This document shows, piece after piece, positions 2,004-27,398 of a stretch of 64,000 bases of DNA. The stretch spans positions 1 through 64,000 of IMG/VR virus record IMGVR_UViG_3300013233_000151; one strand, written 5' to 3'. The translations under genes were made by a program, and so were the position numbers. The stretch is from a virus. The notes below the pieces were generated by a model that ran no database searches, was not told where the DNA came from, and saw only the letters and a list, made by a program, of their open reading frames with translations. How positions within the stretch are numbered: position 1 is the stretch's first letter; every line of letters begins with the position of its first letter.

Positions 2004-5000
2004 ATGACGCATACGACTTTCGACAGAGCGATCCTCTCGATCCACTACGCGCACGAGATCACCCTTGGCTCGCCCATGTCACAGACGGTCGATCGTGCGC
2101 GCGGTGCGTTCGAGGGTCCGGTCGAGATCGTGTATGAGGTCGATGGCGGATATGTCGTGCAGGGCGCTTCTGAGGCCGTCTTCATGGGTGACGACGGTGA
2201 GGTGGCGCTCACCGACATCTACGAGTCGCTCGACGAGACGAAGACGCATGACATCATGCGCGGAGGTCTCGGTATCCCTCGCACACGGATGCCGCAGATC
2301 CGTTCAGACCTCGTGCCAGAGTTCCTCGCATACCTGCGCGAGAACGGCGTGACGGTGCGCAAGGGGCGCGCGGCCGTCGGCACGTTGAAGCCGACGCAGG
2401 ATAAGGTGTCGATGGAGAAAGCGGAGGCGCTCGCCACCTCCGCGCCCGAAGCGAAGCTACGACTACCCGTGATCGTGAGCAGCGATCGGCACATCCTCGA
2501 CGGGCACCACCGCTGGGCCGCGCTGTACATGAAGGGCATCGACGAACAGATCGGAACCTACTCGGTGTCGGTCCCGATCAAGAAGCTCCTAGAACTCGCG
2601 CGCGGATTCGGGAAGGTCGGATACAAGGAGCAAGGCGAAGCGATAGAGGACGACGAGACCGACGAAGGGATCAACGACCGCTACATCCTCAAGGCCGTCT
2701 TTATGACGGGCGGTGCGGGAGCGGGAAAGAGCTTCATCTCCGACATCATGTTCGGAGGCACTGGACTCAAAGTCGTGAACTCCGACGAACAGCTCGAACG
2801 CGCGATGAAAAAGGCCGGGCTCGATCTCAAGAAGGACATGGCGTCCTTGCAGGTGCAGGCTCAGGGCGGGCTGCGCGCTCAAGCCAAGGCGACTACCAAC
2901 AAGCGACTCGACCTGTACGTGAAGGGGCGTCTCGGCCTCATCATCGACAGCACGGCCGCGAATGTCGCGTCGGTCCAGAAGAAGGTCAAAGGTCTGCGCG
3001 CTCTTGGATACGACGTGTCGATGGTCTTCGTGAACACGTCACTGGAGACTGCACTCGCGCGCAATCAAGAGCGACCGCGCACCGTTCCGGTTCAGGTAGC
3101 GACGACCGACTGGAAGAAGGTGCAGGGAAACCTCAAGACGTACCGTGCGCTCTTCGGCAGCTCCAACTTCCGCGAGATCAAGAACGACGAGGTGCTGTCG
3201 CCGCGCGAAATCGTTGCGAAGCTAACCCCACAACTCACGAGGGCTGCGATGCCGCTACTGAACAAGCCCGTCCAGAACCCGATCGGGAAGCAGTGGGTGG
3301 AGGATCAGCGAACGCAGCGTGCACAGCAGCTTGCGGCGAGCATTGAGGGCGAGAGGACGATGCTTGTCGAAGATCTGTTCCTCGCGTTAGGTCTGTTGGG
3401 TTCGACCGTTGCTGGTGCTGTGCTGAGCAAGCTCGCCATTGGGGCAAAGCGCACAGTTGAGAAGGCGATACAGCTCCACAAACAGGGGAAGACGAGCGCG
3501 GCCGAACGGGCATTGCTCAAGCTAAGCGCTGACGACCGCCGACAAATCGAGGCACTGCTTAGCCCTACGGGCGTGAAGTCAATTCAACGCACAAACTTTC
3601 GATCACATCGTTCAATGAAACGACAGAGGAATTTCATGCACGAAGAGGCATTGGACGAGAAGGGTGTCGGCCGTACTGACCTTGTGAGGATGCTTGACGC
3701 ACGCACCAAGAAGCTTGAATGGGAGGGTCCGTTGCGTCAGTTTGCGAAGGACAACGCCGACACGCCCGATGTCGTGAAGCAGGTCACGCGCCTTCGTCCG
3801 GGTCAGTCGGTGAAGATTGGAGGCGGGGCGTCGACTGAGTTCATCATCGTGCGCGAGGGCATCGACGAGTACGACGTGGAGACGGATCGCATTCCTGACT
3901 TGGAGGGTCGCTGGCGGCGTATGGTCGAGGGCGAAGTTGTGCACATCACGGATACCGAGTGGGATGAACTGTCCGACCGAGCGCCGGAGGGGACGCGCAT
4001 TCGATCGAATGCCGACGACTCCATCACGGACTGCGAGCTGTACCTTGCTCGATATGCGCCGATTGATGAGTACACTGCGCTCGGAAACTTCGAGGTGCAG
4101 CAGCATCGTCGGGATACGCCGCGCGAGTCGCATTGGGTCGGAGGCAACTTGAAGTCCGCGAAGGCAAAGGCGAAGGAGCTGAGCAAGAGTGACGTAGGCA
4201 CTGCGTATGTCGTCAACACCGCGAAGGTGTCGCCCCGCACTGGTCGCTCGAAGCCCGTGGCGGCGTTCAGTCAGGGCAAGTCGATCACGCCCGAGCAGGC
4301 TGCTTTTGGTGAGTCGTACGAGGAAGGAGAGATGTCGCTCGTGGAGATCGAGTGCCTCCACATGGACGACCTCGCAGATGCCCTCCAGGTTGCGATTCAG
4401 CAGAATCCTTCGGACGTGCATCTCGTTGGAGAGCACTTCGGTCAGTTAGAGGCTGCGGTCGAAGACGGCAACTTCGAGAAGGCCGAGTTGATCTTCGAGC
4501 AGATCATCAAGGCGCTGCCGCTCGACGAGGCGACGCGCATGAGCACGCACGCGCGGATCAGTCGCGTGCGCAACGCACGGCGCGGCTCCACGAAGTCCAT
4601 GCAGTCGGGCGCGAAGAACCGAGGTCAGGTCAGGCAGGAGAACCGCAAGAAGCGAATCGCACGCCGCTCGTTACCCACGAGTCGCATGAAGGCGCAGCGC
4701 ATGAGCAACGTCAAGCGCAGCCTCAGCATCGCGCGCGAAGCTCTGGACGCTGGGTCCAGGAATCGGCTCGAAGAGGCCGCGTTGTACTGGACGCGGAGTG
4801 GCGGGCTGGCTGATTTCGGTGACGACGACGACGCCGGTAAGGCTGCCGCTGCTCAGCTCCACAAAGGGCTGTTGAAGCTCGGATTCGAGTACGCGCGGAG
4901 AGTCCCGGGCGGCGGTCGGCTCGGAGCCATGTATCAGTACCGCTCCGGCAACTTCGAGGTGGGTTGCAGTCAGCTCGTTCCTCCTCATACCGCGTCGGTG

Positions 5001-7977: not shown

Positions 7978-10900
7978 ATGAAGAAGCAAACCACCGGCTC
8001 GGGCATGGCGGGCGAGATCGCCACCTACGTCATGCGCGGCAACCGCACGCCCTACGATCTCCGCCAGCATTTCCGCCTCACGCTCCCGGCGGCTCAGAAG
8101 ATCATGGATCAGTCCAACTACGCCTTCGGCCCGGGCGGAAAGGGCTACGCCTGGTACATGAAGCAGGTCGGCAACGTGCTCAAGGGCGGAAACGTGTTCG
8201 AGGCCACGAACGCACAGAGCATCGCCGCAGGTGCGTTGGGCGCGATGAATCGAGGCCGCGACGCGAGCGTTCAATTCATCAACGAGGGTGTGCCGGAGAC
8301 GCACCAGCGCAAGATCGCAGTCGCCACGCTCAAGATGAGCGCGATGGGCGCGAAGATCGCGGGCGGCATGGATCACGCCGGAGCCGTAGCGGTGCTCAAG
8401 GACGCGGGCTGGTCCCCCGCGAAGATCGCTGCCCAGCTCAAGAAGGCCGGACATGACGCGGCTGACATCAAGAAGTGGATGCACGAGTCGCTGGATGAGG
8501 ACGAGAAGGCCAACGCTCGGAAGATGAAGGCGAAGGGTTACCGCTTCATCATCGAGTTCCCGAACAACAAGCCCGCGCCGCTGTACGCGAAGACGCTCTC
8601 GATGGCGACCGAGATCATCAAGGACCACGGTGCGCCGAAGGGCGTCAAGGGTCAGCCGATCGACAAATTCCTCAACGAAGACTCTGAGGACGACGAGCTG
8701 GACGAGGCGCTCGGAGCGAAGGACAAGAAGGTGATCGCGGCGTTCACGGACAAGAAGCCGATGGACGGTCCGAAGCTCTCCACGGATGGCGAGACGCTCG
8801 ACTTCAACGGCATGGGCGGTCGCGGTGTTGCGTCGTGGTCGAACGGCAAGATCTACATGGGCGACACCGGCAGCACGCAAGACGATGCGGTGCACCGCGC
8901 GATTCGCAAGACCGCGCCGCGTAACTGGATCGGTGAGTCCACCGACGAAGCGAGCCCGTCCGTGCTCGGCGACAAGCTCAAGGCGATGTTCGACGCGGAG
9001 TATTCGCTCAACCACGGCAAGGGCAAGGACGCGGCTGCGTCGGTCAAGAAGGCTCTCGAAGCGAAGGTCAAGAAGCTCGCTTCCGAGCTGGGGAAGGTAG
9101 GCGGCTACAAGTATCTCGTGAGCCCCGCGCTGAACAACGCGCGCAAGGGCACGAGCTGGTCGAAGTTCGCGCGCAACATGGTCACGTCGAACCTCGACAT
9201 GGGCGAGTCGCTCGATGAAGCCGTCCAGGTCACGGCTGCGTACGCGCTGGCGAACATGAAGCGCGGCGATCGCGTCGAGCTTTCGACGCCGCAGTCGGGC
9301 AACCAGACGCGCAAAGGCAAGGCCGTGATGCGCGGACCCCACGGATGGGCGGTCGATCTTGGAGGCAAGCATGGCACGCCCGGCGTTGCCACCGAACGCA
9401 ACCTCATCAAGTGGAAGGCTCACCCGGTTGTGAGCGAGGCGAGGGGAGCGGGTAAAGGTGAGTTGGCAGGTAGGCGCATCGGCGTCGGCACCGTCAAGAA
9501 GTCAGCGAGTGGTGCGAAGGATAGGGCCTCTGCTAAGCGCATCGTCGAGGGCGTGCTTGGAATTCAAGACCGTGCACACGCACGACAGCTTGGGATCGAC
9601 GAGAGCGTCTTGGGTCGTGCGAACGGTCTGCCGACTGCGCTGCGCAAGTATTCGCACGCGCTCCCCAAAGGTCTTGGTAAGCCGCAGAAGTACGAGACGC
9701 GAGACGGCGTGAAGGAGGGCTACTACCTCACACTCACCGACAACAAGCGCGGGCTATCCAATCGTCCCGGTTCGTCGAGCGGCAGCCTCACCGCCGTCTT
9801 CACGGTCGAGAACCTGCTCAGTCAGTTCAAGAAGGCGGAGGGTGAGCACGGTCAGCACGGTCACACGACGTTGACTTTCAAGAAGGGCGAGGGCAAGGCT
9901 CCGAAGATTGTTGAAGCCCGTCTCTCGGGCGGCAGCGGAGGCAGTTCCAAGAAGGCGTCACGCAAGGATGATCCCGAAGCCGCAGGTTCGAGTAGGTTCG
10001 CTGCTCAGGGCGTCGGAAAGAAGGCCAAGCGTGAGAGCGACCACGGCGAGCACCACAGCAACTACGAGTCTGTGGAAGAGGCCAAGGGAGACCCGGTGCG
10101 GCTCAAGGTCATAAGCGCCGTTCGTGTTTCGTCCGTGGTTCCCGGAGCGACGGCGGGGGTCACGCTTCAAGATCAGACGGTTCTTTTTCGATCGACCGAT
10201 TACGACGGGCGTGGTGGTGTGACGGGTCCGTTTGTCCTCGTGGACTCGACGGACGCGATGTTCGCGGTGCTGAACTTCGGATGGAACGTCGGTTTTGAGG
10301 AAGAGCGCGGTCTCAACAAGAAGGCCCACGCTGCGATGCGTAGGAATGCGGCGCGGGCGTTCAAGCAGTTCTTGAAACGGACCAACGAATCCAACGACGA
10401 CAACACCGACGACCTCTCCGCCAAGAAGGAGTCGGGTCTCAAGGCCAAGGCGAAGGAGATGGGAGCCATCAAGGTCTCGGGCAAGGGTCCTAGCGTGAAC
10501 GCCACCTTCAAGGACAAGGCCACGGCCGAGAAGTTCTATCGGCACGCCAAGACGGTCGGCAAGGCGTCGATGCGCCGCAGTGGCGACACCGAGTTCACGA
10601 TCAGCATCGACGAGTCCGAGGACTGCCCGGAGATCGTGGACATCGGCGATGGTCGCTACTACATCGAAGGCGTCGGCATGTGTGAGTCGCTCGATGAGGC
10701 GCAGGGTCATCTGCTGCTCGATGAGGACGTGCTCGACGAGATGAAGAAGTCCAAAGGACACGTCGCATTCCTGGGTGACTTCGAGTACGTGATCGTGAAC
10801 GGCGGCGAGGGCATGGTGCTGGGACGCGCCCCGACCTCCAATGCCTTCGACCAGACGGGTAACCGTCACGCGCGTTTCGAGGCCCCGGCGTGGCAGGCCG

Positions 10901-13900
10901 AGCAAGCGATGAAGCTCGCGTTCAGTGGCTTTCGGCAGAAGGTCGATCCGAAGGCGATGCAGAGGCTCAAGCGATTGCTCAAAGAAGACGTGGACGAAGG
11001 CGCGGAGACGCTGCGCGTCAAGATCCTCGACATCTTCGACAATGGTGAAGATTTTCATCCGCGCTACACCGTCAACATCGAGACCAACAACCGCGACATA
11101 TACACGTTTGGGATGTTCGAGCCCGGCACCGAGCCCGACTCACAACAGGGGAACGCGGTGGTGTCGAACTTCACCAACTTCCTCAAGGGTGGAGCGCGTC
11201 GCGGCGAGCACGCGATGAAGGTGTCGATGAAGCGTCTCCCGGCTTCGCTGCGCGGTCAGCTCGAAACGCTCATCGCCGACCCGAGCCCTTGGTGGGGAGA
11301 TCTGGAGTACGACGAAGATCTCGACGAGATGGGGCAGATTTACAGGATCGGAGCTGGGGGCCTCAAGCCCATCGACACCACGATCTTTCTCGCTCCCAAC
11401 TCGTCCTATTACCTCGGTGCGTCCACCACCCCACATCACATTGTCGTGACGGCGGTGTCGGATTCGCAGATTACATATTGTCAGTATCCGTACACGACAT
11501 CGCAGCGAATCGAGACGGAGATCGGCAAAGATCTGATTGCGCAAGGCACGAGCCGTTACATGAAGACGTACGCTGCCTATCTTGACCCCAAGCAGAAGGC
11601 GACGTGGGTGGCGAATCTCAAAGGCAAGAAGGGTCCTTTGAACGGCAAGCAGCCCGTCAAGGGCTTCCAGCGGGTGCTCGTTACCTGCGTCGCCAACGCG
11701 AAGACGCGCGATCTATACGGTCAGACGAAGAGCTATGGCGTCCTGACCGACTACTGGCAGAGTGGTAAGCCCGGTGCGAAGGGCGACAACGCCAGTAAGG
11801 AAACGAGCGTCATCAAGGTCGCGCGCAATATGGTCCCGGCCATGAAGTCGAGCGGTGACTTCGATATCGTGACGGTCGGTCGCAAAGTTGTGGAGTCGGA
11901 CGAGGATTACTGCGATTGGATCGACGAGAACGGTATCGACGAGTTCACGAGCGCCGCCATCCCGGCCATCGGCACCATGCACCCGTGGGTCAGTCCCTAC
12001 GGGAGCGAGATGTCGCTGATCGGTGGAGCCGATGACCTGGAGGACGACGAGGACGCAGACAACGAGTTCGCGCTCGACGAGAACGGAAACTTCGAGCTAG
12101 TAGATGAGGCCAAGTCCTCCAAGTTCTCGGTCAAGTGCCTGGAGTGCGGCAAGAAGTTCAAGACCGCCTCGATGAGCCCGACCTGTCCGAAGTGCAAGGG
12201 CTCCGACATCGAGCCCGACTACGACGCGCCCCGTCGTCGGAAGCGCAACGAGGACGTGGAAGACGAACTCGACGAATCCGTCAAGCCAACCGTCGAGGGC
12301 TTTCATTTTATCCTCACGGGTGCGCTGACTCAGTACGACGTGCAGCAGATGGCGCGTGCGGCGAAGAAGAGAGGCGGCTATCACAACGCGAATGCGTTAG
12401 GTCTGTACTTTCAAGCGTTAGAGCGGGCCGAGAAGGATCCGAAGATGCGCGGTGTCAAGAAGACATCTTCGGATCACGAGGATTTGCGTAAGCTCATCGC
12501 GGTGCTCTCAGATTACTTCGATCCGCATTTCCCTCCGATCAAGAAGACGATCAAGCAGATCCAAGCTTTCATCGACTCCGGAAAGCTTCCCAAGTACCCG
12601 ACGCCTCCCAAGAAGCGCAAGATCTCGGATAGCATCGAGATCCCAGAGGTCGATGAGGCGTGGCCGGTGCGTGGTACGGGCGGCGCGGGTGGCGGCAAGC
12701 CTAACCTCAAGGCAGAACGCAAGGGGCCTCGCGGGCAGGGAACCGACGATTTTGAATTCGCGGACGAGGATCTCGACGAAGGCTCGTCGCTCCACGACGC
12801 GCTCATCGCACTGTTCGTCAGCAATCGAGGACGCGCCTACACGGCGAGCACCATCGCCAAGCTCCAAACGGTCAGCCTCGCGGAAGCGATGCGGACGCTC
12901 ACGGTGCTGGTCCGAGAGGGCACGCTCCGGTTCAAGCGCGGCGAGGGCTATTCGCTACGCGGCAACCCTAACGCACTCAGGGTCGCGGGAGCTTCGGAGC
13001 CCAAGGCACCGCTGTCCTCTCGGCTCTACAATCAGCGTACGAACAGCTCGCCCGCGTCCATGCGCGAGGACGTGGATGAGGCTGTCGATCCGCTCAAGGC
13101 GTTCAAGGGACGCCCTCGTGACTGGACAGCAAAGCAGAACCGCGACGCTGTGGAGATGCTTTCTGGGTGGTCTCTCAAGAAGCTGCGTAAGCACCAAGAC
13201 CTGAACAAACGACAGATCGTCACAGCACATCGACAGGGGAATACCGAGGCGCTGGAGAATCTGCAAGCGATGGAGAACGTTTACATCGGTGCGATTATGC
13301 GGCGGGAGGTCGGAGAGTCCGTGGACGAGGATAGTTCTTCGAGCGGCACGCTCTACACGGGAACCGGGCGCACCGGACCCGCTGGGCCGAAGCTCCCTCG
13401 GCATCTTACGGCGTCCGACTTCTCGAAGGGTGACGCGGGCGGTAACGGCCCCGTGAACCACGAGCAGCTTAGAGGCCCGGCCCCGGATGCCAAGCGCAGC
13501 GCGATGGTGTTTGCCGAGGACGACGAAGACGACGTGGACGAAGGGTTGGGTCGGAAGGTCTTTTACACAGCGGACGGTATCGGCAAAGCGAAGTACATCG
13601 TCAACTTTCACGACGGGAAGAAGTCGCATGGCGACGGCAGCCCGTTCTACGACATCGCCATCTTTGCGAGCAAAGCCAAGCGTGCGACGAAGGTGAAGGA
13701 GCTGCTGAAACAGGGATACAAAGAGGTCAGTTCGGCGGTTCACGAGACCACTACGTCTGGTGGCGTCGGAGGCTTCTCCAGTGAGCCGATCGGCAGCTAC
13801 CCGGAGAACTGTGGTCGCACCGGAGGCATCCGTGATGACAGCAAGAAGAAGAAGGGGCCTCGCTCCGTCTTCGACAACGGAGCGATCGGTCGCGTGCTCG

Positions 13901-15489
13901 AACAGATGCGCGAGTCCATGCCGGGTAAGACGGACGAGGAGCTTATGGAGCTTCTCGATCTGGACGAAGGCGGCGAGCGTTTCAAGAAGCTGGAGAAGGA
14001 GATCGCTGCCAAGGGCGACGTGCGAGATCCCGGCGCGGTCGCGGCGGCGATCGGACGCAAGAAGTACGGCAAGAAGAAGTTTCAGAAGATGGCCGCTAAG
14101 GGCCGCGCGGAATCGACGGACGAGACGGGCACGTTGGAGATGACCGTCTACGCGAAGTCGAAGCGTGGACCTTGGGTCACGCTGGATCCCTACGGCGAAG
14201 AGGTTGAGTACCCGAACAAGCAAGAAGCGGTCGCGGCTGCGCGGGAGAAGGCTTCGGTCGAGAACTACGGGTTCGTGTACCGCGACGGCAAGGTGGCGAA
14301 AGAGGATGTGGGTGAGGCGATCGACGAAGCCGCGAAGAAGCTCAAGGTCGGCAAGGCTCCGAAGCTCGTGCAGGACACGCTGCGCAGCCTCATGCACAAG
14401 GTCACGTACGAGAAGGGCCGCTTCCTGACTGGCGACATCGTGCGCATGGACAAGGCCAAGAAGGAGGCGGTGATCCAGTGGGCTGTCGGCATGAACGATC
14501 CGCAGATGATGGAGCCGGGGACTATCGACGGTCACATCGAGCGACTCGCCAAGCGTCTCGTCGAGTCGGTCGCGGACAACAAGCGTCCCGTCAGCCTCAA
14601 CCCTGTCGAGCGCGCACTCCTGAGCGCCATTCGGATCGAGCGAGGAAAGCACGGCATCGAGGAGTTGATCGCAACCGACCGATTCCTACAGTCAGTCCCG
14701 TATGCGGACGTGTTGGTGGCGGCTGATAATCTCTCCACCCTCGGGCTCGTGGGTGGGAACGGACGTGGGATTATGACCACGTTCGGAGAGGGCGAAGACG
14801 GCGTGGACGAAGTGGAGTTTCGTACCCTTCGCTATCCCTACAAGGTCGAGACGGCCGTGGGGGCGCATGGTCAGCTCAACGGCGTGCGTTTCTACGAGGA
14901 CGACGCGCAGGCCAAGGCCGACATGCAGAAGCTCGTAAAGCGTGAAGGTCTCGGCAAGGTCACGCTCGTCAAGCGCATGACCGCAGCGGAAGCCAAAGCC
15001 GCACACGTCCCGTACCCGAACGAGTCCGAGGATCCTGGACCCGGTGTCCAGGATGAGCTGGTTGAGGCGGTCTTGAAGACCGGCAACCCGAGCGTGCCGA
15101 GGATCGGCTACGAGCAGGGGCGCTACTGGTATTCGACCGGCGGTGCTAAGAACGGACCCGCTGTCCCACCCTCGAAGCGCAAGGACCGTAGCTTCGCGCG
15201 CGAGAAGTTTCGCCACATGCTTAGTAACGAAGCTGGCGGCGGAATGGGCCAAGCGGCTGCCTCGAAGCTGATCGACAAGCTCGATGCGATGATTCCTGAG
15301 GACGCGGAGGAGACTGGCCCGCGCGAGCCCCTTCAGTTCCCCGAGTCCGCACTCGAACGCTACGTCTTGGCCGCTCAGGCGGCTGGGATTGACGAGGACG
15401 ACCCTTGTTTTGTCTTCGAGGACGGCATCTTCACGGTGGAGGTGCCCGCTGAAATGGCTCCGCGTCTGCGTGAGCTGGTCGGGGTGTAG
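7978..15489 (+). CDS. Giant polyprotein B (2503 aa), internal head protein candidate
   Basis: GAGG eight bases upstream supports ATG 7978, ten bases after polyprotein A. The protein is a chain of 60-150-residue segments divided by ES(L/V/T)DE or (L/I/V)DE motifs. Motif ends are near residues 174, 243, 324, 414, 907, 1007, 1117, 1322, 1433, 1601, 1701, 1784, 1855, 1997, 2049, 2117 and 2278. The next residue is usually Ala or Gly, as at T4 gp21 cut sites. Recognisable pieces are a CxxC-CxxC zinc ribbon (C1387, C1390, C1403, C1406) and a winged-helix-like segment just after 1601 (SLHDALIALF). The rest is unknown, Lys-rich and soluble. A virion-internal polyprotein is inferred. A cytoplasmic multidomain protein is the alternative. 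Confidence 0.8.
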   Translation: MKKQTTGSGMAGEIATYVMRGNRTPYDLRQHFRLTLPAAQKIMDQSNYAFGPGGKGYAWYMKQVGNVLKGGNVFEATNAQSIAAGALGAMNRGRDASVQFINEGVPETHQRKIAVATLKMSAMGAKIAGGMDHAGAVAVLKDAGWSPAKIAAQLKKAGHDAADIKKWMHESLDEDEKANARKMKAKGYRFIIEFPNNKPAPLYAKTLSMATEIIKDHGAPKGVKGQPIDKFLNEDSEDDELDEALGAKDKKVIAAFTDKKPMDGPKLSTDGETLDFNGMGGRGVASWSNGKIYMGDTGSTQDDAVHRAIRKTAPRNWIGESTDEASPSVLGDKLKAMFDAEYSLNHGKGKDAAASVKKALEAKVKKLASELGKVGGYKYLVSPALNNARKGTSWSKFARNMVTSNLDMGESLDEAVQVTAAYALANMKRGDRVELSTPQSGNQTRKGKAVMRGPHGWAVDLGGKHGTPGVATERNLIKWKAHPVVSEARGAGKGELAGRRIGVGTVKKSASGAKDRASAKRIVEGVLGIQDRAHARQLGIDESVLGRANGLPTALRKYSHALPKGLGKPQKYETRDGVKEGYYLTLTDNKRGLSNRPGSSSGSLTAVFTVENLLSQFKKAEGEHGQHGHTTLTFKKGEGKAPKIVEARLSGGSGGSSKKASRKDDPEAAGSSRFAAQGVGKKAKRESDHGEHHSNYESVEEAKGDPVRLKVISAVRVSSVVPGATAGVTLQDQTVLFRSTDYDGRGGVTGPFVLVDSTDAMFAVLNFGWNVGFEEERGLNKKAHAAMRRNAARAFKQFLKRTNESNDDNTDDLSAKKESGLKAKAKEMGAIKVSGKGPSVNATFKDKATAEKFYRHAKTVGKASMRRSGDTEFTISIDESEDCPEIVDIGDGRYYIEGVGMCESLDEAQGHLLLDEDVLDEMKKSKGHVAFLGDFEYVIVNGGEGMVLGRAPTSNAFDQTGNRHARFEAPAWQAEQAMKLAFSGFRQKVDPKAMQRLKRLLKEDVDEGAETLRVKILDIFDNGEDFHPRYTVNIETNNRDIYTFGMFEPGTEPDSQQGNAVVSNFTNFLKGGARRGEHAMKVSMKRLPASLRGQLETLIADPSPWWGDLEYDEDLDEMGQIYRIGAGGLKPIDTTIFLAPNSSYYLGASTTPHHIVVTAVSDSQITYCQYPYTTSQRIETEIGKDLIAQGTSRYMKTYAAYLDPKQKATWVANLKGKKGPLNGKQPVKGFQRVLVTCVANAKTRDLYGQTKSYGVLTDYWQSGKPGAKGDNASKETSVIKVARNMVPAMKSSGDFDIVTVGRKVVESDEDYCDWIDENGIDEFTSAAIPAIGTMHPWVSPYGSEMSLIGGADDLEDDEDADNEFALDENGNFELVDEAKSSKFSVKCLECGKKFKTASMSPTCPKCKGSDIEPDYDAPRRRKRNEDVEDELDESVKPTVEGFHFILTGALTQYDVQQMARAAKKRGGYHNANALGLYFQALERAEKDPKMRGVKKTSSDHEDLRKLIAVLSDYFDPHFPPIKKTIKQIQAFIDSGKLPKYPTPPKKRKISDSIEIPEVDEAWPVRGTGGAGGGKPNLKAERKGPRGQGTDDFEFADEDLDEGSSLHDALIALFVSNRGRAYTASTIAKLQTVSLAEAMRTLTVLVREGTLRFKRGEGYSLRGNPNALRVAGASEPKAPLSSRLYNQRTNSSPASMREDVDEAVDPLKAFKGRPRDWTAKQNRDAVEMLSGWSLKKLRKHQDLNKRQIVTAHRQGNTEALENLQAMENVYIGAIMRREVGESVDEDSSSSGTLYTGTGRTGPAGPKLPRHLTASDFSKGDAGGNGPVNHEQLRGPAPDAKRSAMVFAEDDEDDVDEGLGRKVFYTADGIGKAKYIVNFHDGKKSHGDGSPFYDIAIFASKAKRATKVKELLKQGYKEVSSAVHETTTSGGVGGFSSEPIGSYPENCGRTGGIRDDSKKKKGPRSVFDNGAIGRVLEQMRESMPGKTDEELMELLDLDEGGERFKKLEKEIAAKGDVRDPGAVAAAIGRKKYGKKKFQKMAAKGRAESTDETGTLEMTVYAKSKRGPWVTLDPYGEEVEYPNKQEAVAAAREKASVENYGFVYRDGKVAKEDVGEAIDEAAKKLKVGKAPKLVQDTLRSLMHKVTYEKGRFLTGDIVRMDKAKKEAVIQWAVGMNDPQMMEPGTIDGHIERLAKRLVESVADNKRPVSLNPVERALLSAIRIERGKHGIEELIATDRFLQSVPYADVLVAADNLSTLGLVGGNGRGIMTTFGEGEDGVDEVEFRTLRYPYKVETAVGAHGQLNGVRFYEDDAQAKADMQKLVKREGLGKVTLVKRMTAAEAKAAHVPYPNESEDPGPGVQDELVEAVLKTGNPSVPRIGYEQGRYWYSTGGAKNGPAVPPSKRKDRSFAREKFRHMLSNEAGGGMGQAAASKLIDKLDAMIPEDAEETGPREPLQFPESALERYVLAAQAAGIDEDDPCFVFEDGIFTVEVPAEMAPRLRELVGV
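15035..15051 (+). repeat. 17-bp dyad element, copy 3
   Basis: CTGGACCCGGTGTCCAG, with the dyad extended to 9-bp arms (ATCCTGGAC/GTCCAGGAT). It lies inside polyprotein B. Confidence 0.75.
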
Positions 15490-19721: not shown

Positions 19722-19925
19722 TTGAGGTGTTTCCTTTGCAAAAAGGTAGTGCGTCCGGGCGAATCCCATACCCCGCACAAGGCACCGATTCAAGGTCGGC
19801 TTAGGGCAACCAACTCACACACGAGCTGCTTTGATGATGCTAAGCGCAGGGGGTACACGAGACCCAAATCCCCGATGATTCAAGCGCATGGCAAAAAAGA
19901 AGGCAAAGAAGAAGGCTCGACGTAA
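19722..19925 (+). CDS. Possible small Cys/His protein
   Basis: A TTG-started frame of 67 aa with CFLC near the N-terminus and two His plus a Cys (HTPHK...SHTSC), compatible with a zinc site. It overlaps the next gene by 38 bases and has no clear ribosome site; a lone GTAGAC lies at 19715 without a matching -10. The reading is plausible but weak. Confidence 0.35.
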   Translation: MRCFLCKKVVRPGESHTPHKAPIQGRLRATNSHTSCFDDAKRRGYTRPKSPMIQAHGKKEGKEEGST

Positions 19926-21138
19926 GGCCGCCCCCACCAAGTACGCGAGCGTAGTGGTCGAGACGCTCGCGCTCGACGAGATTGCGGACGCGCCGTACAA
20001 CGCGCGCCTGATCTCGCAAGAGGCATTGTCAGGGCTCACGCAGAGCCTCCTCGACTTCGGACTTCTCACGCACCCCGTCGTCAACAAGACGGACGACGGC
20101 TACGTGATGGTGAGCGGCCACCAACGCCGCAAGCTCCTACGCGACGCGGGCGTGACAGAAGTGGATTGCATCGTGGTCGAGTTCGACCCCGAGCAAGAGC
20201 GCCACGCCAACTACACGCTCAACAACCGCGAGATCCAGGGTGAGTTCGTTCCCGAACTGCTCAAGGATGTGTTGCAGCGGCTCAAGGAAGGCGCGGGCGA
20301 CGACTACAAGAAGATGTTCGAGCGCCTGCGCTTCGACACCTTGTACCGCTCGGTCACGCGACAGCTTGCCAAGAAGGTCGATCCGGCGAAGAACGGTAAG
20401 GTCTCACGCGGCAAGACGCGCGACGACGACATCCCGAACCTCGCGCGCTCAAAGGCCGTGTCGCAAGAGGGCGAAGTCTACCGGCTCGGCGATCACCTGC
20501 TCTACTGCGGCAAGGTGCGCGCGCCCGGTGCGCTCTCTATTTTCAACGTCGAGCAAGCCGACATCGCGTTCAGTTGGTACAGACAAGACGATCCGTTCAC
20601 GGAGGAGTTCCTCCAGGTCACGATCGGGCACACTCTCCAGAACACCGAAGGCGCGGTCTATCTGTCCACGCACTTTGATTCTCTAGCGGACGTGCAGAAC
20701 GCTTTCGACGCGATGGGCGGTCACTGGAGCAACACGCTCATGTGCACGTCGCCCACCACGAAGAAGGGGCTCAAGACGGATATCTACCGCGACGTGGTGG
20801 TGCCGGTCGTGTACGGGTGGCGCGAAGGAGCGCACCACACCTTTTTTGGTGGACGCCGCACGTCGAACCTCATGCCTCTGGAGACTTCACCGCTCAAGAC
20901 CGACGTAGCGGTTGAGATCGTGCTCGCGGCCTTGAAGAACAGCTCTCGTCCAGGCAACACGGTGCTCGACGCCTACATGGCGCACGGCGCGACGCTGATC
21001 GCAGCCGAGAAGTCCGGCCGCAAACTCATTGGCTACGTGGGTTCGGTCCGCGAGATGGACCGCATACGAAATCGTTGGACTCGTTTCGTTTACGGGCCGA
21101 GCGCCGATTGGAGAAAGAAGACGGAGGCACTTGGTTGA
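19888..21138 (+). CDS. ParB-like / degenerate DNA methyltransferase fusion
   Basis: 416 aa. A basic N-terminal tail (KKKAKKKARRK) is followed by a ParB/Srx-type domain with SGHQRRKLL, then a domain collinear with N4/N6 DNA methyltransferases. At the catalytic position, where its paralogue at 23882 has TDPPYN, this protein has ADIAFSWY (224-231). In the AdoMet loop it has DAYMAHGAT (361-369) instead of DPFAGSGTT. Both key motifs are therefore lost while the frame is intact, so it is probably a catalytically dead partner or DNA-binding subunit. The ribosome site is weak; the next gene overlaps as TTGA. Confidence 0.8.
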   Translation: MAKKKAKKKARRKAAPTKYASVVVETLALDEIADAPYNARLISQEALSGLTQSLLDFGLLTHPVVNKTDDGYVMVSGHQRRKLLRDAGVTEVDCIVVEFDPEQERHANYTLNNREIQGEFVPELLKDVLQRLKEGAGDDYKKMFERLRFDTLYRSVTRQLAKKVDPAKNGKVSRGKTRDDDIPNLARSKAVSQEGEVYRLGDHLLYCGKVRAPGALSIFNVEQADIAFSWYRQDDPFTEEFLQVTIGHTLQNTEGAVYLSTHFDSLADVQNAFDAMGGHWSNTLMCTSPTTKKGLKTDIYRDVVVPVVYGWREGAHHTFFGGRRTSNLMPLETSPLKTDVAVEIVLAALKNSSRPGNTVLDAYMAHGATLIAAEKSGRKLIGYVGSVREMDRIRNRWTRFVYGPSADWRKKTEALG

Positions 21139-21530
21139 ACGACATTCACGTCCTACGACATTTACTCTCTGAATTGCCGTTGTCAGACGAGCAGTTGGAG
21201 CCAGTAGCAGGAGTCGTGAATCGGATAGAAGAGGCGTTGCTCTCCACAGAAGCGACGCAGGCGCGCGTGCAGTCGATCGAGAACTTCGTTGACATGCGGT
21301 TCTTCAAGCAGGGCGAGCCGTGTCCCCTTTGCCATCGGAATTCCTACCACTCAAAGACGTGCTACCTGCGTTCGTCAACCGGGTGGGACTTGTTGGCTGA
21401 GCATGAAGCGACGCTGCACGAGAACGACGAGCTGAGGCAAGCACTCGCTATTCATCTCCCGCACAACGGGAAGACAGTCTTGTCGGGGGGCACGTATCGC
21501 GGTCTCAAGGCGCGCGCCCGCAGCGAATAG
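21135..21530 (+). CDS. Unknown zinc-binding-like protein (131 aa)
   Basis: TTG 21135 overlaps the preceding TGA and has GGAGG seven bases upstream, a strong site that decides this start. The protein is helical (LLSELPLSDEQLEPVAG...) with CPLCHRNSYHSKTC in the middle, a likely zinc site. It is translationally coupled to the pseudo-methyltransferase. No family recognised. Confidence 0.65.
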   Translation: MNDIHVLRHLLSELPLSDEQLEPVAGVVNRIEEALLSTEATQARVQSIENFVDMRFFKQGEPCPLCHRNSYHSKTCYLRSSTGWDLLAEHEATLHENDELRQALAIHLPHNGKTVLSGGTYRGLKARARSE

Positions 21531-21580
21531 CACGACGACCGGAACTTGCCGGTCGCCACTCTTGTTTTGAGGTATGTGCG

Positions 21581-23350
21581 TTGAAGAGGACGCTTTGTTT
21601 GCTCGTGCTGCTGTTCGCAGCACCGTTAGTGGTGGCGCAGTCCACCGATACTGATCCGACCGACTCACTGAGTCGGTACATACGCAAGCTTGAGGCGCGG
21701 GTGTCGGCACTCGAAGAGGCGATGTCCCGCTATCATCCGCAGGAGCCTCCGGTTGAGCCTCCGGTTGTGCCGCCGGTTGAGCCTCCGGTTGTGCCGCCTA
21801 TCGGTGGCTGGCCCGTCGCACCCACGGTGTCGCTCGTGTACGACAGCCGTGCCGACGATCCGGTGCCGTTCACCATAGCACCCGTGCAGTGGGAGGCTCG
21901 TGAGGGACGACGCTTTTGTAAGGCCGCGCAGACGGTTGAGCAGACGCAGTTCATCGTATGGTTCGAGCAGGTCGAGGGACTCGATGCCACGCGCGTCACC
22001 GTGGCGGCGATCAATGGGCTCTACGGGGTTGGTCCCGCTTACTTCGAGCACTACCGCGTGACAGTGGGGCATGAGCTGCTGGCCGACATCCGAGGTCGAA
22101 ACGTCATCCCGCCGCGCTTTGCGATCTTCCGCAGGCTCAGCGTTGGGCCGGACGCGGATGTGCTGGGCGGATGGACGTATCTGCCGACCGACCCGGCGCT
22201 CCCTCAGTGGGCAGCCTCCAAGGCTGCGAAAGATACTGCTAAGCGGACGGCGTTCCCGTTCCAGCGGCACAACGGAAAGCCGGTTGACATCGGCCCCTAC
22301 AATTTCTTCTGGCCTGATCATTCTCTCAGCGATTCACATGGCGGCTATGGGGTCGCGCCCTTCCACGGAGGTCCGGACGACTGGCTCGTGTGCCCCGAGG
22401 GACGGGCGAACCGTGAGGCCGAGATGCTGCTGGACTTCCAGCGTCCGATCTGGATGCTCAACGCCGACTACACGCCGTTCTCTCCGTTTGTTTCCTATTG
22501 GATGGGCCGTACGAGCGCGCACGAGCCTCCTGGCTATCGGTACACCGTGGACGACTGGTGCCCGTATGCGTCCGAGCTGATTACCTATAAGTTCTACGAT
22601 TTATCGCATCTCAGTCGAGGCACTTCGGGTGCCGCTGCGCTCGCCGCCTATGACATCGTGGGCGAGGCGTGCTTGGAGATGGTGTTCACGGACTTCAAGA
22701 CGGCGTACTCGCTCGATCCCAATCACCCGGGTAAGGACCAGGGCAACTTCTTGCTATTCCCGTTGTGGAAGAAGATCGAGGTCACGAACGGGCCGGGCAA
22801 CGGCGGCGACCGAAGCCTCGCTCACCTGTTGCGATTGCTTAGGTGGTGCCGACCGTACTTCGACACCGAGCCCTACGACGTGGCTATGCGTGCGTTCACG
22901 CGCAAGCTCAGCGACGCCTATGGGATGACGAACGCTGGTAGCGCTCCGTGGGCTGCAAACCCGGCGGTCATGTCGGACCCGCTTACGCAGCCCATTAACT
23001 ACACGTTCCATCAACAGCTTGTGCTTTACGAGGAAAGTCGCTTCGGCGGTCTCGACGATCTGGTGGCGAAGGCTCGGCGTTTCCTGACAAAACGACCGCC
23101 CGCAGCGTTCGAGGTTCGTTCGGGCGATTTGCAAGACACGGTGTTCGATCGGCACAACACCGCGACAGTTAGTCAGGACAGACCGAAGTGGGGCTATCCT
23201 TGCTACGGGCAGATGACGCATGGCGTGTGGGTGGGGTTCGACAACGCTCAGCAGTTCGCCGCTGCGATGGAAGCTCGGGGCGTGAACGGAAGTAGTCAGG
23301 ATTACGACTGCACGCCGCGATCGCTGTGGGCGGAAAATGAGGACAGATGA
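21581..23350 (+). CDS. Secreted protein with signal peptide and Pro-rich linker
   Basis: 589 aa from TTG 21581 (GAGG just upstream). The N-terminus KRTLCLLVLLFAAPLVVAQ is a textbook Sec signal peptide with a likely cut after VVA. Next come a short coiled coil (YIRKLEARVSALEEAM) and a linker of PPV repeats, then about 500 residues of Trp/Tyr-rich globular domain, helical in its second half. I cannot assign a fold; a sugar-active enzyme is a guess. Exported proteins are uncommon in phages and usually act in lysis or at the host surface. A single-pass mini membrane protein follows directly (ATGA overlap). Confidence 0.75.
   Translation: MKRTLCLLVLLFAAPLVVAQSTDTDPTDSLSRYIRKLEARVSALEEAMSRYHPQEPPVEPPVVPPVEPPVVPPIGGWPVAPTVSLVYDSRADDPVPFTIAPVQWEAREGRRFCKAAQTVEQTQFIVWFEQVEGLDATRVTVAAINGLYGVGPAYFEHYRVTVGHELLADIRGRNVIPPRFAIFRRLSVGPDADVLGGWTYLPTDPALPQWAASKAAKDTAKRTAFPFQRHNGKPVDIGPYNFFWPDHSLSDSHGGYGVAPFHGGPDDWLVCPEGRANREAEMLLDFQRPIWMLNADYTPFSPFVSYWMGRTSAHEPPGYRYTVDDWCPYASELITYKFYDLSHLSRGTSGAAALAAYDIVGEACLEMVFTDFKTAYSLDPNHPGKDQGNFLLFPLWKKIEVTNGPGNGGDRSLAHLLRLLRWCRPYFDTEPYDVAMRAFTRKLSDAYGMTNAGSAPWAANPAVMSDPLTQPINYTFHQQLVLYEESRFGGLDDLVAKARRFLTKRPPAAFEVRSGDLQDTVFDRHNTATVSQDRPKWGYPCYGQMTHGVWVGFDNAQQFAAAMEARGVNGSSQDYDCTPRSLWAENEDR
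21743..21799 (+). repeat. 12-bp tandem repeat (Pro-rich linker)
   Basis: Almost five units of GAGCCTCCGGTT or GTGCCGCCGGTT, encoding EPPV/VPPV. A slippage-prone linker. Confidence 0.85.
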
Positions 23351-23475
23351 TCCAGTATGAACTCGACGACGACGCTGACCGAGGCCCTTGGTCGCGTTGG
23401 TGTTGCGTCGGGTGCTTCCTATACTGCTCGGTAGTGATCGCGGGCGTCGTCTGGGCGCTGCGAGCCTTTCTCTGA
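23347..23475 (+). CDS. Mini membrane protein (42 aa)
   Basis: ATG 23347 overlaps the preceding stop (ATGA) and the frame ends at TGA 23473-23475. The product has an acidic, soluble first 17 residues (MIQYELDDDADRG...) and then one hydrophobic segment, CCVGCFLYCSVVIAGVVWAL, with four cysteines, ending RAFL. That is one transmembrane helix, probably N-in. Coupling to the secreted protein suggests a joint envelope role such as lysis or superinfection exclusion, but nothing in the sequence proves it. Confidence 0.55.
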   Translation: MIQYELDDDADRGPWSRWCCVGCFLYCSVVIAGVVWALRAFL

Positions 23476-23485
23476 TGATCGAGCC

Positions 23486-23854
23486 GTGAACCCCCTGGAG
23501 TACAGCTCCGTTGATTGGCAACTCCTCTTTGAGTTGCGGATCTCGCTCCTGCATGGCAAGCCTTTGCCGATGACTACGCTGCGGATCATGCGCGAGCGGG
23601 GGTGGATTGCACTTCCGCTTCCTGAGCAGTGGGTGTCGGTCCGCGCCGTGTTGTCTGACGACGTGTCACAGGAGACGATCGAGGCGTTCAGCTACGTGCT
23701 CGCCGTCCCGATCCTGTTGCCCGTCGGAGAGCGTGAGCTGAATCTCTTCACGAGCTTCTACGCCGATGAGGACATCGAGGCGCTGTACTCGGAAGAATTG
23801 GACGGGGAGGTGGACGACGTGGACATCGAAGACGAAGATGGAACGGAATACTGA
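23486..23854 (+). CDS. Unknown protein with acidic tail (122 aa)
   Basis: GTG 23486, ten bases after the mini membrane protein. The first 95 residues form a compact alpha/beta domain (WQLLFELRISLL...); the last 27 are almost all Asp/Glu (EELDGEVDDVDIEDEDG). An acidic tail of this kind is seen in DNA mimics and assembly factors. No family recognised. Confidence 0.65.
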   Translation: MNPLEYSSVDWQLLFELRISLLHGKPLPMTTLRIMRERGWIALPLPEQWVSVRAVLSDDVSQETIEAFSYVLAVPILLPVGERELNLFTSFYADEDIEALYSEELDGEVDDVDIEDEDGTEY

Positions 23855-23881
23855 AATCCCTTCCTACATCGAGGAGGCACC

Positions 23882-25126
23882 ATGACGAAGGCGCAGATCA
23901 AGTCAGAATTGAAGGTCGAGAAGTTCGACCTGCGCAAGCTGGAGTTCGCGGACTACAACCCGCGAATGATGACGCCCGAGGCCCGCACGGGCCTCAATGA
24001 GTCGCTTGACTCGCTCGGCCTCCTGGAGCTGCCGATCGTCAACGTGAGCCAGGACCCGCCCAGGATCATCGGCGGACACCAGCGCGTGCGCGAGATGCTC
24101 GAAGAGGGCTACACGCACGCCGACTGTGTGGTGACGCGCATGGACGACGTGGCGGAGATGGCGGCGAACATCGCGCTCAACAACTACGCGACGCAAGGCA
24201 CGTTCGACCCAGTGAAGGCGCTGCCAGATCTCGACCGCATAGCGAAGCGTCTGCCGAAGCCCAACTTCACGCGCTTCAACGAGATGGGGAACAAGCTGCG
24301 CGAGCAGGCGCGTCGCGTGCAGGCGAGCCTGAACCCCAAGGCGGGTGATTCGCTCACTAGCAAGCAGGCGACGTCGGACTCCGAGGCAGGGATCATCTAC
24401 AAGCTCGGTGAGCACCGCCTCTACTGCGGCGACTTCCACGAGGGCATCCCGGCGCTGCTAAAGCGCAAGAAGGCAGCGGTCACGATCACGGACCCGCCCT
24501 ACAACCTCGCGTACACGAGCGGCAAGTGGTTCCGTAACGACAAGCTGCGCGAGGAGATCTCGGGAGACGAACAGAGCCCCGAGGAGTGGGAAGACTTCGT
24601 GCGCGAGTTCTGCGCCGCGATCATCAAGGCCACGAAGGGCTCGATCTATTTGTTCACGGCGGCCAAGGAGCTGTCGGTCGTGCAGCGCGCGTTCGAGCGC
24701 GAGGGCGGCGACCTACACCGCTGGCTCGTGTGCGCCAAGAACGCGCACACGCTCTCGCCCGGTGATTACCACCCGCAGTACGAGCTGATCCTATGGGGCT
24801 CGAAGCACGGCATCGAGATCGACTACTACGGAGAGCCCAAGACGAACGTGATCCAGACGAAGCGTCCGTCCAAATCTCCGCTGCACCCGGCGCAGAAAAC
24901 GGTGGAGCTGGTACGCGAGCTGGTCGAAGATGCGACCGACGTGGGCGACCTGATCCTCGATCCGTTCGCTGGCTCGGGCACGACGTTGTGCGTGGCCGAA
25001 GAGGGTGAGCGCGTCTGCTACGCGGTCGAGATCGACCCTGAGCACTGCGACACGATCCGTCGTAGATGGGCTGAACAAGTCCACGGTGCAAACGCCAAGT
25101 GGAAGACCCTGACCCCTGAAATCTGA
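23882..25126 (+). CDS. ParB-like / DNA N4/N6 methyltransferase fusion (active copy)
   Basis: 414 aa, with GAGGAGG upstream of ATG 23882. The N-terminal ParB/Srx domain carries GGHQR at 64-68. The C-terminal methyltransferase has an intact catalytic TDPPYN (D204-Y207) and an AdoMet loop DPFAGSGTT (360-368), the order of beta-class N6-adenine/N4-cytosine enzymes. It should methylate phage or host DNA, protecting it from restriction or marking it. ParB-methylase fusions are known from phages and mobile elements. The degenerate paralogue at 19888 matches it along its length. Confidence 0.9.
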   Translation: MTKAQIKSELKVEKFDLRKLEFADYNPRMMTPEARTGLNESLDSLGLLELPIVNVSQDPPRIIGGHQRVREMLEEGYTHADCVVTRMDDVAEMAANIALNNYATQGTFDPVKALPDLDRIAKRLPKPNFTRFNEMGNKLREQARRVQASLNPKAGDSLTSKQATSDSEAGIIYKLGEHRLYCGDFHEGIPALLKRKKAAVTITDPPYNLAYTSGKWFRNDKLREEISGDEQSPEEWEDFVREFCAAIIKATKGSIYLFTAAKELSVVQRAFEREGGDLHRWLVCAKNAHTLSPGDYHPQYELILWGSKHGIEIDYYGEPKTNVIQTKRPSKSPLHPAQKTVELVRELVEDATDVGDLILDPFAGSGTTLCVAEEGERVCYAVEIDPEHCDTIRRRWAEQVHGANAKWKTLTPEI

Positions 25127-25129
25127 ACC

Positions 25130-25633
25130 ATGATCCTCATCGCAGGACTGCCTTCCAGCGGCAACCATCTTGTTTACACGCACGTTCGCAGGGGCGTGGC
25201 GGCGCGCGATGGTGAGCACAGCGTCGAGGGCGTGGACCGTGAGACGGTGCAGATCTGGCACGGCGACAACGAGAGCCCGAACCTCAAGCGCCCCGAGGGA
25301 GATCGCGTGGTGCTCGTCATACCTGTGCGCAACGAAGCGGTGCGTAAGCTGTCGCTACAGCTCCGCATGGAGACACAAAAGCGCGGACCCTTCCCGCTCG
25401 ATAATGATACGATGCGTCGCAACGTAGCGCGCCTTATCGTGCGCGAGGATGCGTGCTGGTACGGCGTCAGCTACGAGGGCCTGATTGTGGATTCGGAACG
25501 CCTTGGTCGGGACCTCTTCGACTGGTTAGGTCTCCCGTGGGTGGAGTGGCCGGACGATGGGAGGTCGCATCAAGGACCCGTTTTCGACGCCAATAAGGCA
25601 CATTCTTCGTCTGGACCCAGCGTCCAGACCTGA
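25130..25633 (+). CDS. Sulfotransferase-like P-loop protein
   Basis: 167 aa. GLPSSGNH at residues 6-13 is the PAPS-binding loop type of sulfotransferases; VIPVRNEAVRKLSL resembles the 3'-phosphate loop; VSYEGLI...DLFDWLGLPW matches the C-terminal YEDL...FLGLP signature. It is short for the family (usually 220-300 aa), so some of the substrate domain is missing. The substrate is unknown. It starts 4 bases after the methyltransferase. The last codons lie in a copy of the 17-bp dyad. Confidence 0.6.
   Translation: MILIAGLPSSGNHLVYTHVRRGVAARDGEHSVEGVDRETVQIWHGDNESPNLKRPEGDRVVLVIPVRNEAVRKLSLQLRMETQKRGPFPLDNDTMRRNVARLIVREDACWYGVSYEGLIVDSERLGRDLFDWLGLPWVEWPDDGRSHQGPVFDANKAHSSSGPSVQT
25611..25627 (+). 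repeat. 17-bp dyad element, copy 4
   Basis: CTGGACCCAGCGTCCAG, with the dyad extended to 8-bp arms (GTCTGGAC/GTCCAGAC). It sits at the 3' end of the sulfotransferase-like gene, 29 bases before the MazG-like start. Confidence 0.75.
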
Positions 25634-25655
25634 CCCCCCTACATCGAGGGACCCT

Positions 25656-26276
25656 ATGATCCAGTGGAACGAATACGCGGAAGCGGCTGCCAGCTCTGCT
25701 ATCTACCCCGGCCGAGGAATGAAACTCGGTCTCCTGTACGCGACGCAAGGACTGCGCGGCGAAGCCGGTGAGGTGTGTGAGCACGGAAAGAAGCTCTTGC
25801 GCGACGACGGAGGCCAGCTCACGAACGAACGTCGAGGCAAGTTCCAGAAGGAGCTGGGAGACGTGTGCTGGTACGCATCGGCCGTTGCGTTCGAGGCGCG
25901 GTTCCATTTAGGCGACGCCGTGATCCGTGATCCGCTCAACTACCCTGAGCAGCTCAACTACGTGGGGCGCGGCACTGCGATCGGCATCAACTACGCGACT
26001 GCACGGCTGCACAGCGCGACCGCGAAGGTCGGCGACTTCGCGCTGTACGTCATGCCGCACGTTCTTGAAGACGGCGTGGTGTGGTGCGATGTGATCGACC
26101 AGGGCCGCGTGATCCGCACGAACATCCGCACCGCGCTCAGTCACGTCATGTTCTGGGTCCAAGAGGCGTGCGTGAGCACCGATCTCTCGCTCGACATGGT
26201 GATGCGCGCCAACCTGGAGAAGCTGGCGGACCGCAAGGCACGCGGCGTACTACAAGGCGGCGGCAGCGAACGCTAG
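25656..26276 (+). CDS. MazG-like NTP pyrophosphatase
   Basis: 206 aa from ATG 25656 with GAGGG upstream. The all-alpha NTP-PPase signature is present: GEAGEV with E36/E39, KK at 45-46, and ELGDVCWY with E66/D69, the residues that bind Mg2+. A C-terminal part (MVMRANLEKLADRKARGVLQGGG) matches the usual MazG-like ending. These enzymes hydrolyse (d)NTPs to monophosphate and pyrophosphate, for nucleotide pool control or (p)ppGpp-related host control. A central 60-residue part is unusual and may contain a second helical pair. Confidence 0.85.
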   Translation: MIQWNEYAEAAASSAIYPGRGMKLGLLYATQGLRGEAGEVCEHGKKLLRDDGGQLTNERRGKFQKELGDVCWYASAVAFEARFHLGDAVIRDPLNYPEQLNYVGRGTAIGINYATARLHSATAKVGDFALYVMPHVLEDGVVWCDVIDQGRVIRTNIRTALSHVMFWVQEACVSTDLSLDMVMRANLEKLADRKARGVLQGGGSER

Positions 26277-26285
26277 TCTTTCGAC

Positions 26286-27398
26286 ATGCCGACCGTCCCG
26301 CGCGCAGTACGCGAGCAAGCGCAACGCGCTCTCAAGCTCCACCGACGCACGCCCGTCAACGGCGTCGGTGGAGCGTCGGTTGCGGAGCGTCTCGTGAACG
26401 ATACCTCTGTCGAGTTCGATACCGTGCAGCGGATGCGTCGTTTCTTCACCGTCAACGAACGGACGTATGCTGACTCTCTCCAGCTCCGGCACGGCGCGCA
26501 CAACAGTCCGCTCATGCGCTCGTGGGGTCTGCACGGCGGCGACGCAGGCAAGACGTGGGCGGAGGCGGCGTACCAGTCAGGACGCAAGGCGGGCGAGGTC
26601 GATGAAGACCCGTGGGTGACGCTCCTGCGGTTGGAGCCCGAGCGCCTGTACGAGCGACTCAACTTCGGTGCGTGGAAGTGGGAGTATGGGATGAGCGCCA
26701 TGAAGGCGGCACGCTTCGTCGAGGAGTACACGCGCACACATCGCATCGACTTCCGCTTCGACCGCGCGTTCGGTGATGGAGGGGCGTCGGTCAAGACTGC
26801 GCTGATCCGTAGAGTCGAAGGCGACAATCCGTTCAAGACCCTCGCGCGCGCGGTCACGCACCCGCGTCTCGTTGAGTGCGCGCGCACCGATCTGGTTGAG
26901 CACCGCGAGTCGCTCGGCTATACGTCGCTCAACTGGCCTGAGTTCATCGCCTACTTCGTGGTCGGCGCGCACGACTCGAAGGTCGGGTCGCAGCTCTCCG
27001 AGTCCTCGTCGTATCCGTGGCGTGGACGGGACGTTTGTTCGGTGATGGAGTACATCGACCCGGTGGCGAGCTATGTGACCTTCTTCCACCCCAAGGGATC
27101 GTGTTACCACAAGGACGCTCCGCAGGGCCTCTTGTCGGGAATCGACCAGCTTATGTGGCAGGTGCGCGAAGGAGAGCTGGTCAACGAGGTCTTGGCGCGC
27201 GAGACGCTGCACGCAGCGCGCTCGTGGACGGCGGGTCATCACCATGCACGAGGGCTCGGACACACGCTTCTTGAAGCTTGGGAGCGAAGAGAGTGGGATT
27301 GGTTCAGGGAGGCACTCCCTCTTGATTCGCCCATGCGCGCACCGTTCATGGCCTTCGTGTCGAAAACGGCTGGAACATGGCTTGACAAGGGGCAGTAG
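26286..27398 (+). CDS. Unknown protein (370 aa)
   Basis: ATG 26286 nine bases after the MazG-like gene, without a clear ribosome site. The protein is soluble and rich in His, Arg and Trp, with conserved-looking stretches QLRHGAHNSPLMRSWGLHGG and EYIDPVASYVTFFHPKGSCYH. No catalytic motif that I can name. Its stop codon is part of the GTAGAC of the next promoter. Confidence 0.75.
   Translation: MPTVPRAVREQAQRALKLHRRTPVNGVGGASVAERLVNDTSVEFDTVQRMRRFFTVNERTYADSLQLRHGAHNSPLMRSWGLHGGDAGKTWAEAAYQSGRKAGEVDEDPWVTLLRLEPERLYERLNFGAWKWEYGMSAMKAARFVEEYTRTHRIDFRFDRAFGDGGASVKTALIRRVEGDNPFKTLARAVTHPRLVECARTDLVEHRESLGYTSLNWPEFIAYFVVGAHDSKVGSQLSESSSYPWRGRDVCSVMEYIDPVASYVTFFHPKGSCYHKDAPQGLLSGIDQLMWQVREGELVNEVLARETLHAARSWTAGHHHARGLGHTLLEAWERREWDWFREALPLDSPMRAPFMAFVSKTAGTWLDKGQ

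Follow-up and report, generated by a model that had tools for sequence, protein, structure and literature searches.

The 64,000-nucleotide stretch of DNA analysed here (positions 1 to 64,000 of IMG/VR virus record IMGVR_UViG_3300013233_000151; "the window" below) comes from a phage record of 72 kb that encodes contractile-tail and head proteins (sheath, baseplate, protease, and major head protein). It carries two full-length paralogues, P (starting at 19888) and A (starting at 23882), each combining a ParB-like domain with a beta-class N6/N4 DNA methyltransferase domain. All catalytic and cofactor motifs are present in A and have been lost from P, and P was always found together with A. By analogy with known methyltransferases, the two proteins probably form an obligate heterodimer in which catalysis and DNA handling would be divided between the chains.

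Catalytic motifs of A and P

P and A can be aligned from end to end with 27% identity (BLASTP, E = 8e-43), and the Pfam family N6_N4_Mtase is matched in both. In A, TDPPYN, HPAQK, DPFAGSGTT, and EIDP are all present (PF01555, E = 9e-27), and, judged by sequence, the placing of motif IV before the FxGxG of motif I, together with the HPxxKP box, is that of a beta-class amino DNA methyltransferase. The homologous places in P are occupied by ADIAFSWY, a gap, DAYMAHGAT, and YVGS, the last at the place of EIDP. A preliminary description of this DNA had already set ADIAFSWY and DAYMAHGAT of P against TDPPYN and DPFAGSGTT of A, and these four motifs proved exact. The loss of catalytic residues that it deduced is real and larger than it stated, because the HPxQKP box has also gone entirely from P, as have the EIDP acid that contacts the ribose of S-adenosylmethionine (SAM), the lysine equivalent to CcrM K118, and a loop of about 24 residues after motif IV. 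The full reading frame and the ParB-like domain claimed for P were found as well, as an open frame of 416 residues with a ParB_N match, though a weak one.

In an alignment of 16 proteins, none of the eight P-type proteins had motif IV, a glycine-rich motif I (FxGSG loop), an HPxQKP box, or the acid of EIDP, and all eight A-type proteins kept every one of them. Since the same losses recur in P-type proteins on eight separate contigs, neither chance nor sequencing error can account for them. The letters that replace motif I vary among P-type proteins (DAYMAHGAT, DIDVGRGAS, DPNMGTGAT, and DTNVESGAS) within conserved flanking strands, and this variation indicates that the position has been freed from its old function. 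The residues that hold the target base in CcrM, Y34, K118, and E135, are kept in A (E135 as an acid in nearly all members) and lost from P according to the sequence alignment. Scans of defence libraries returned generic type II methyltransferase matches only.

Predicted structure of P

An AlphaFold2 model of P, built from a 14-sequence alignment, had a mean predicted local distance difference test (pLDDT) score of 74, with most of the methyltransferase core at about 85–95 and weaker loops. Its closest structural matches were M1.HpyAVI (Z 19.5) and CcrM (Z 19.4), then TTHA0409, M.BceJIV, and EcoP15I Mod (Z 15.6), with METTL3 and MTA1 next at Z of about 13; the N-terminal part matched ParB-CDP structures weakly. 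A fold search of BFVD gave generic methyltransferase and ParB entries only. As modelled, P retains the CcrM/HpyAVI fold without the chemistry; its sequence lacks the catalytic and SAM-binding motifs of the PF01555 class, but its predicted structure has the fold of that class.

Selection and origin of the pair

The ratio of nonsynonymous to synonymous substitution rates (dN/dS) was estimated by NG86 with bootstrap from the window and two relatives, G001 and G002. It was 0.166–0.186 for the methyltransferase domain of P (bootstrap 95% about 0.10–0.28) and 0.244–0.252 for that of A, so that the ratio of the dead domain was slightly the lower of the two; since dS is high in the distant pairs, the absolute values are rough. 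The dead methyltransferase domain was constrained as strongly as the ParB domain. Over 28 genome pairs, the mean pairwise identity was 0.463 for P and 0.456 for A (r = 0.945); part of this correlation comes from the shared phage phylogeny, and the equal levels are more telling. The methyltransferase domain of P is therefore under purifying selection and is not decaying. Relaxed selection in relatives, which the preliminary description had named beforehand as evidence that would speak against a retained partner, was looked for and was not seen.

In a maximum-likelihood tree of P, A, and 12 ParB-methyltransferases of other phages, P, A, and the outgroup each formed one clade with about 100% support, and P and A were sisters when the tree was rooted on the others. 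Such separate sister clades fit a single old duplication, earlier than the divergence of these phages, and a single loss of catalysis after it.

Joint presence and absence in relatives

All contigs were taken from IMG/VR, and most are fragments. Scans of viral contigs with single-protein patterns gave one close relative only, and scans of genome contigs with P, and then with a seven-member alignment, gave no relative in either case; the family was reached through the major capsid protein (MCP), with which 21 related contigs were retrieved. The pair is present in eight contigs, namely the window, six of these 21 (G001, G002, G005, G014, G016, and G020), and L090, which was found later. Neither gene is present in five relatives that cover the same site, in which the 370-residue flanking gene and the protease and capsid genes are present, and no contig with P only or A only was met among those examined. 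L090 provided a semi-blind test, as it had been fetched by the A family alone, and there too a P-type protein without the DPPY motif was present upstream; in the reverse search, the contigs recovered by P all carried A as well. In G005, G014, G016, and G020 the two genes are adjacent, with a gap of less than about 240 bp or an overlap. Contigs with both genes and contigs with neither are interspersed in the MCP tree, a pattern suggestive of transfer or loss of both genes together; the best tree requires at least four gains or losses, of which the starred branches force only one.

ParB-like domain and basic tail

The ParB_N (PF02195) match of P is weak, at 24.0 bits against a gathering cut-off of 26.3, and the family was matched in all seven P members scanned; A also carries ParB_N. 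A GH(Q/M)R arginine box was found in all 16 P and A proteins, and the ParB domain, GHQR arginine included, does not vary among the eight P proteins. On direct reading, most P-type relatives have, like P, a Lys/Arg-rich tail ahead of their ParB domain, and A has none; the composition of this tail fits a DNA-holding role. Because related ParB-fold fusions bind ATP, CTP, or GTP (PMC12704722), nucleotide control through the ParB-like domains is possible by analogy. A role in ParABS partition was considered and is disfavoured, as a search of seven records, which may be incomplete, gave no ParA-type ATPase (PF13614).

Features of the locus

Features of the P/A locus; positions are those of the window
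Feature	Position	Strand	Basis
P, ParB-like/pseudo-methyltransferase fusion, 416 residues	19888..21138	+	open frame, Pfam, alignment
P, basic N-terminal tail, MAKKKAKKKARRKAAPTK	19888..19941	+	direct reading
P, ParB-like domain, residues 20-118, with conserved GHQR box	19945..20241	+	
P, pseudo-methyltransferase domain, residues 196-416, fold (predicted) retained, motifs gone	20473..21135	+	
P, ADIAFSWY at the place of motif IV (DPPY)	20557..20580	+	
P, DAYMAHGAT at the place of motif I (DPFxGSGTT)	20968..20994	+	
A, ParB-like/methyltransferase fusion with all motifs, 414 residues	23882..25126	+	
A, ParB-like domain, residues 8-106	23903..24199	+	
A, beta-class N6/N4 methyltransferase domain, residues 172-414	24395..25123	+	
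A, motif IV TDPPYN, residues 203-208	24488..24505	+	
A, HPAQK box, absent from P	24884..24898	+	
A, motif I DPFAGSGTT, residues 360-368	24959..24985	+	
370-residue gene 3' of A, conserved flank by which the site is recognised in relatives, whether or not they have the pair	26286..27398	+	

Unrelated cargo genes lie between P and A. In the window these include an open reading frame (ORF) of 589 residues at 21581-23350, which looks secreted and has proline-rich repeats, and L001 has a different cargo ORF of 469 residues (11582-12991) at another position. A is followed by an uncharacterised ORF of 167 residues (25130-25633), which on reading may be sulfotransferase-like, without a family match, and by a MazG-like protein (25557-26276); both ORFs are conserved in G001 and G002. 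The 370-residue gene stands alone in the window, and its homologue in pair-less relatives (L080-L084) forms the start of giant ORFs of about 2580–3300 residues, so that a gene split or fusion is coupled to the site of the pair. In pair-less G018 (L169, 1007-3185) a ParB-like gene and a DNA methyltransferase gene are separate, the former overlapping the start of the latter, and a RecA-like ORF lies next to them. Elsewhere in the window, an ORF of 2503 residues (7978-15489) has no PHROG match, and one of 1987 residues (2004-7967) matches several unrelated PHROGs in separate parts, including an ATPase/kinase-like stretch, and is possibly a polyvalent protein.

Discussion

In the CcrM homodimer the subunits are unequal, one of them catalysing and the other holding the non-target strand and contributing residues in trans, with a large interface between the methyltransferase domains (PMC6787082), and in EcoP15I the DNA is read by one Mod subunit and methylated by the other (PMC4490356). 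Homodimer chains that already have different jobs are a natural start for duplication and specialisation, after which the recognition chain no longer needs its catalytic residues. In the mechanism that we consider most likely, an old duplication of a phage ParB-methyltransferase gene would have given a two-gene module, in which P would have lost catalysis and SAM binding and been retained as a dedicated non-catalytic partner of A, the two pairing through their methyltransferase domains in place of the usual beta-class homodimer. A would flip and methylate the target base, probably at N6 of adenine, on the phage genome, and DNA contacts would come from the pseudo-active surface of P, its basic tail, and its ParB-like domain, possibly gated by nucleoside triphosphates (NTPs). 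P would in this way set the site or strand methylated by A, or load or hold A on DNA, and the probable benefit would be the shielding of phage DNA from host restriction, or its marking for replication or packaging. A fuller version, in which the dead chain, controlled by nucleotides through the ParB-like domains, determines which site or strand is chosen and the pair is an independent prokaryotic-virus counterpart of METTL3-METTL14, is offered tentatively, and we would put it at somewhat less than an even chance.

Positions known from the CcrM dimer bear on the pairing of P with A. CcrM F130, an aromatic residue that inserts into the partner chain, corresponds to Tyr in each of the eight P proteins (Y300), and in A to Tyr in the window and to Tyr or Phe in the seven relatives; the equivalents of the interface residues D113 and H134 differ in both P and A. 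The conserved, P-specific W280-S281-x-T283 appears from sequence alignment to correspond to CcrM positions 110-113, a strand that includes Ile110, which works on DNA in trans, and D113, which is part of the dimer interface (PMC6787082). Several observations weigh against a heterodimer. P-specific conserved residues were not enriched in the presumed interface (3 of 19), so that their clustering at the dimer surface was not supported statistically, and the conservation of the presumed interface segment (0.45) was no better than that of the whole methyltransferase domain. About 2.5 kb of other genes separate P from A in the window, G001, G002, and L090, which means that the pair is not always a tight operon, and the conserved cis-location and equal rates would also fit proteins of the same pathway that never touch.

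P might instead act independently of A, as a DNA-binding, NTP-switched ParB-like protein (a clamp, genome organiser, nickase, or repressor) whose pseudo-methyltransferase domain serves solely for dimerisation or contact with DNA. The invariant ParB arginine, the basic tail, the binding of NTPs by ParB-fold proteins, and the nicking-associated activity reported for the prophage fusion BCE_0392 (PMC3459991, PMC5512222) would all suit such a protein; we nevertheless consider it unlikely, as P was never met without A, its dead methyltransferase domain is as constrained as the ParB domain, and PF13614 was not found in the seven records searched. The obligate coexistence with A and the shared predicted fold would be natural if P were a reader or brake that binds the target or methylated site of A, or A itself, and so limits methylation as a decoy or negative regulator. 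The joint gain and loss of the two genes fits a subunit at least as well, and a role of this kind seems to us improbable.

That P should still be an enzyme, its altered residues serving another reaction or ligand, is suggested by Asp361, Gly367, and the hydrophobic strands of the cofactor pocket, which are still invariant in P. P has, however, lost the nucleotide-flipping motif, the glycine-rich loop, the acid for the SAM ribose, the HPxQKP box, and the counterparts of CcrM K118 and E135, and the substitute letters differ between P members, which makes this explanation highly improbable. Motif loss taken alone would also be expected of a decaying duplicate under relaxed selection, but that explanation is refuted by dN/dS of 0.17–0.19, intact frames in eight divergent contigs, and a divergence equal to that of A. 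The earlier proposal of a regulatory or DNA-binding partner of the active copy is upheld in part: it draws strong support from conservation, co-occurrence, and selection, and a physical pairing with A is probable.

Phage ParB-methyltransferase fusions are widespread (PHROG 498, including the Wolbachia phage WO methylase with ParB_N_Srx, BCE_0392 of a B. cereus prophage, and proteins of Streptococcus Javan phages), and A, homologous to them over its full length and with its domains in the same order, is a typical example. In 12 sampled phage homologues DPPY and HPxxKP were present in all 12 and a clear glycine-rich motif I was found by pattern in 11; P, in contrast, has lost these motifs and occurs together with an intact paralogue. 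Acidithiobacillus phage AcaML1 likewise has two tandem fusions, gp24 and gp25 (L072, 1-2736), but both keep the PPY and GSG motifs and so do not form a dead/live pair. This tandem may be a parallel for how such a pair begins. The open-access literature searched gave no earlier account of a ParB-methyltransferase pair with one dead and one live member, which is weak evidence of absence.

The division of labour between methyltransferase subunits has so far been deduced from homodimers (EcoP15I and CcrM) and eukaryotic complexes, and it may here be written into two phage genes. Eight natural P/A pairs at 35–81% identity can be expressed and mixed, and with them one could see directly what is gained from a dead subunit and what part the ParB-like domain plays in the modification of phage DNA.

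CcrM, M1.HpyAVI, and EcoP15I Mod2 have the same fold as the P model, and in CcrM and EcoP15I the homodimer subunits split DNA contact and catalysis. All three are nevertheless homodimers of one active chain, whereas the phages would have fixed the split in a pair of genes, one of whose products is no longer catalytic. METTL3-METTL14 and MTA1-MTA9 are likewise built from paralogous chains, one catalytic and the other with a decayed cofactor pocket (PMC9174199), and the phage genes agree with that pattern in that live and dead paralogous chains are kept together in all eight contigs, form separate clades, and are under purifying selection. The comparison with METTL3/METTL14, made in the preliminary description, is useful as working logic, but it does not extend to family membership. 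The eukaryotic complexes belong to the MT-A70 family and have no ParB domain; the Pfam scan of P and A gave PF01555, a beta-class family, and no MT-A70 match, and the closer structures are CcrM, M1.HpyAVI, and EcoP15I Mod, so that the resemblance of the phage pair to METTL3-METTL14 and MTA1-MTA9 would be convergent.

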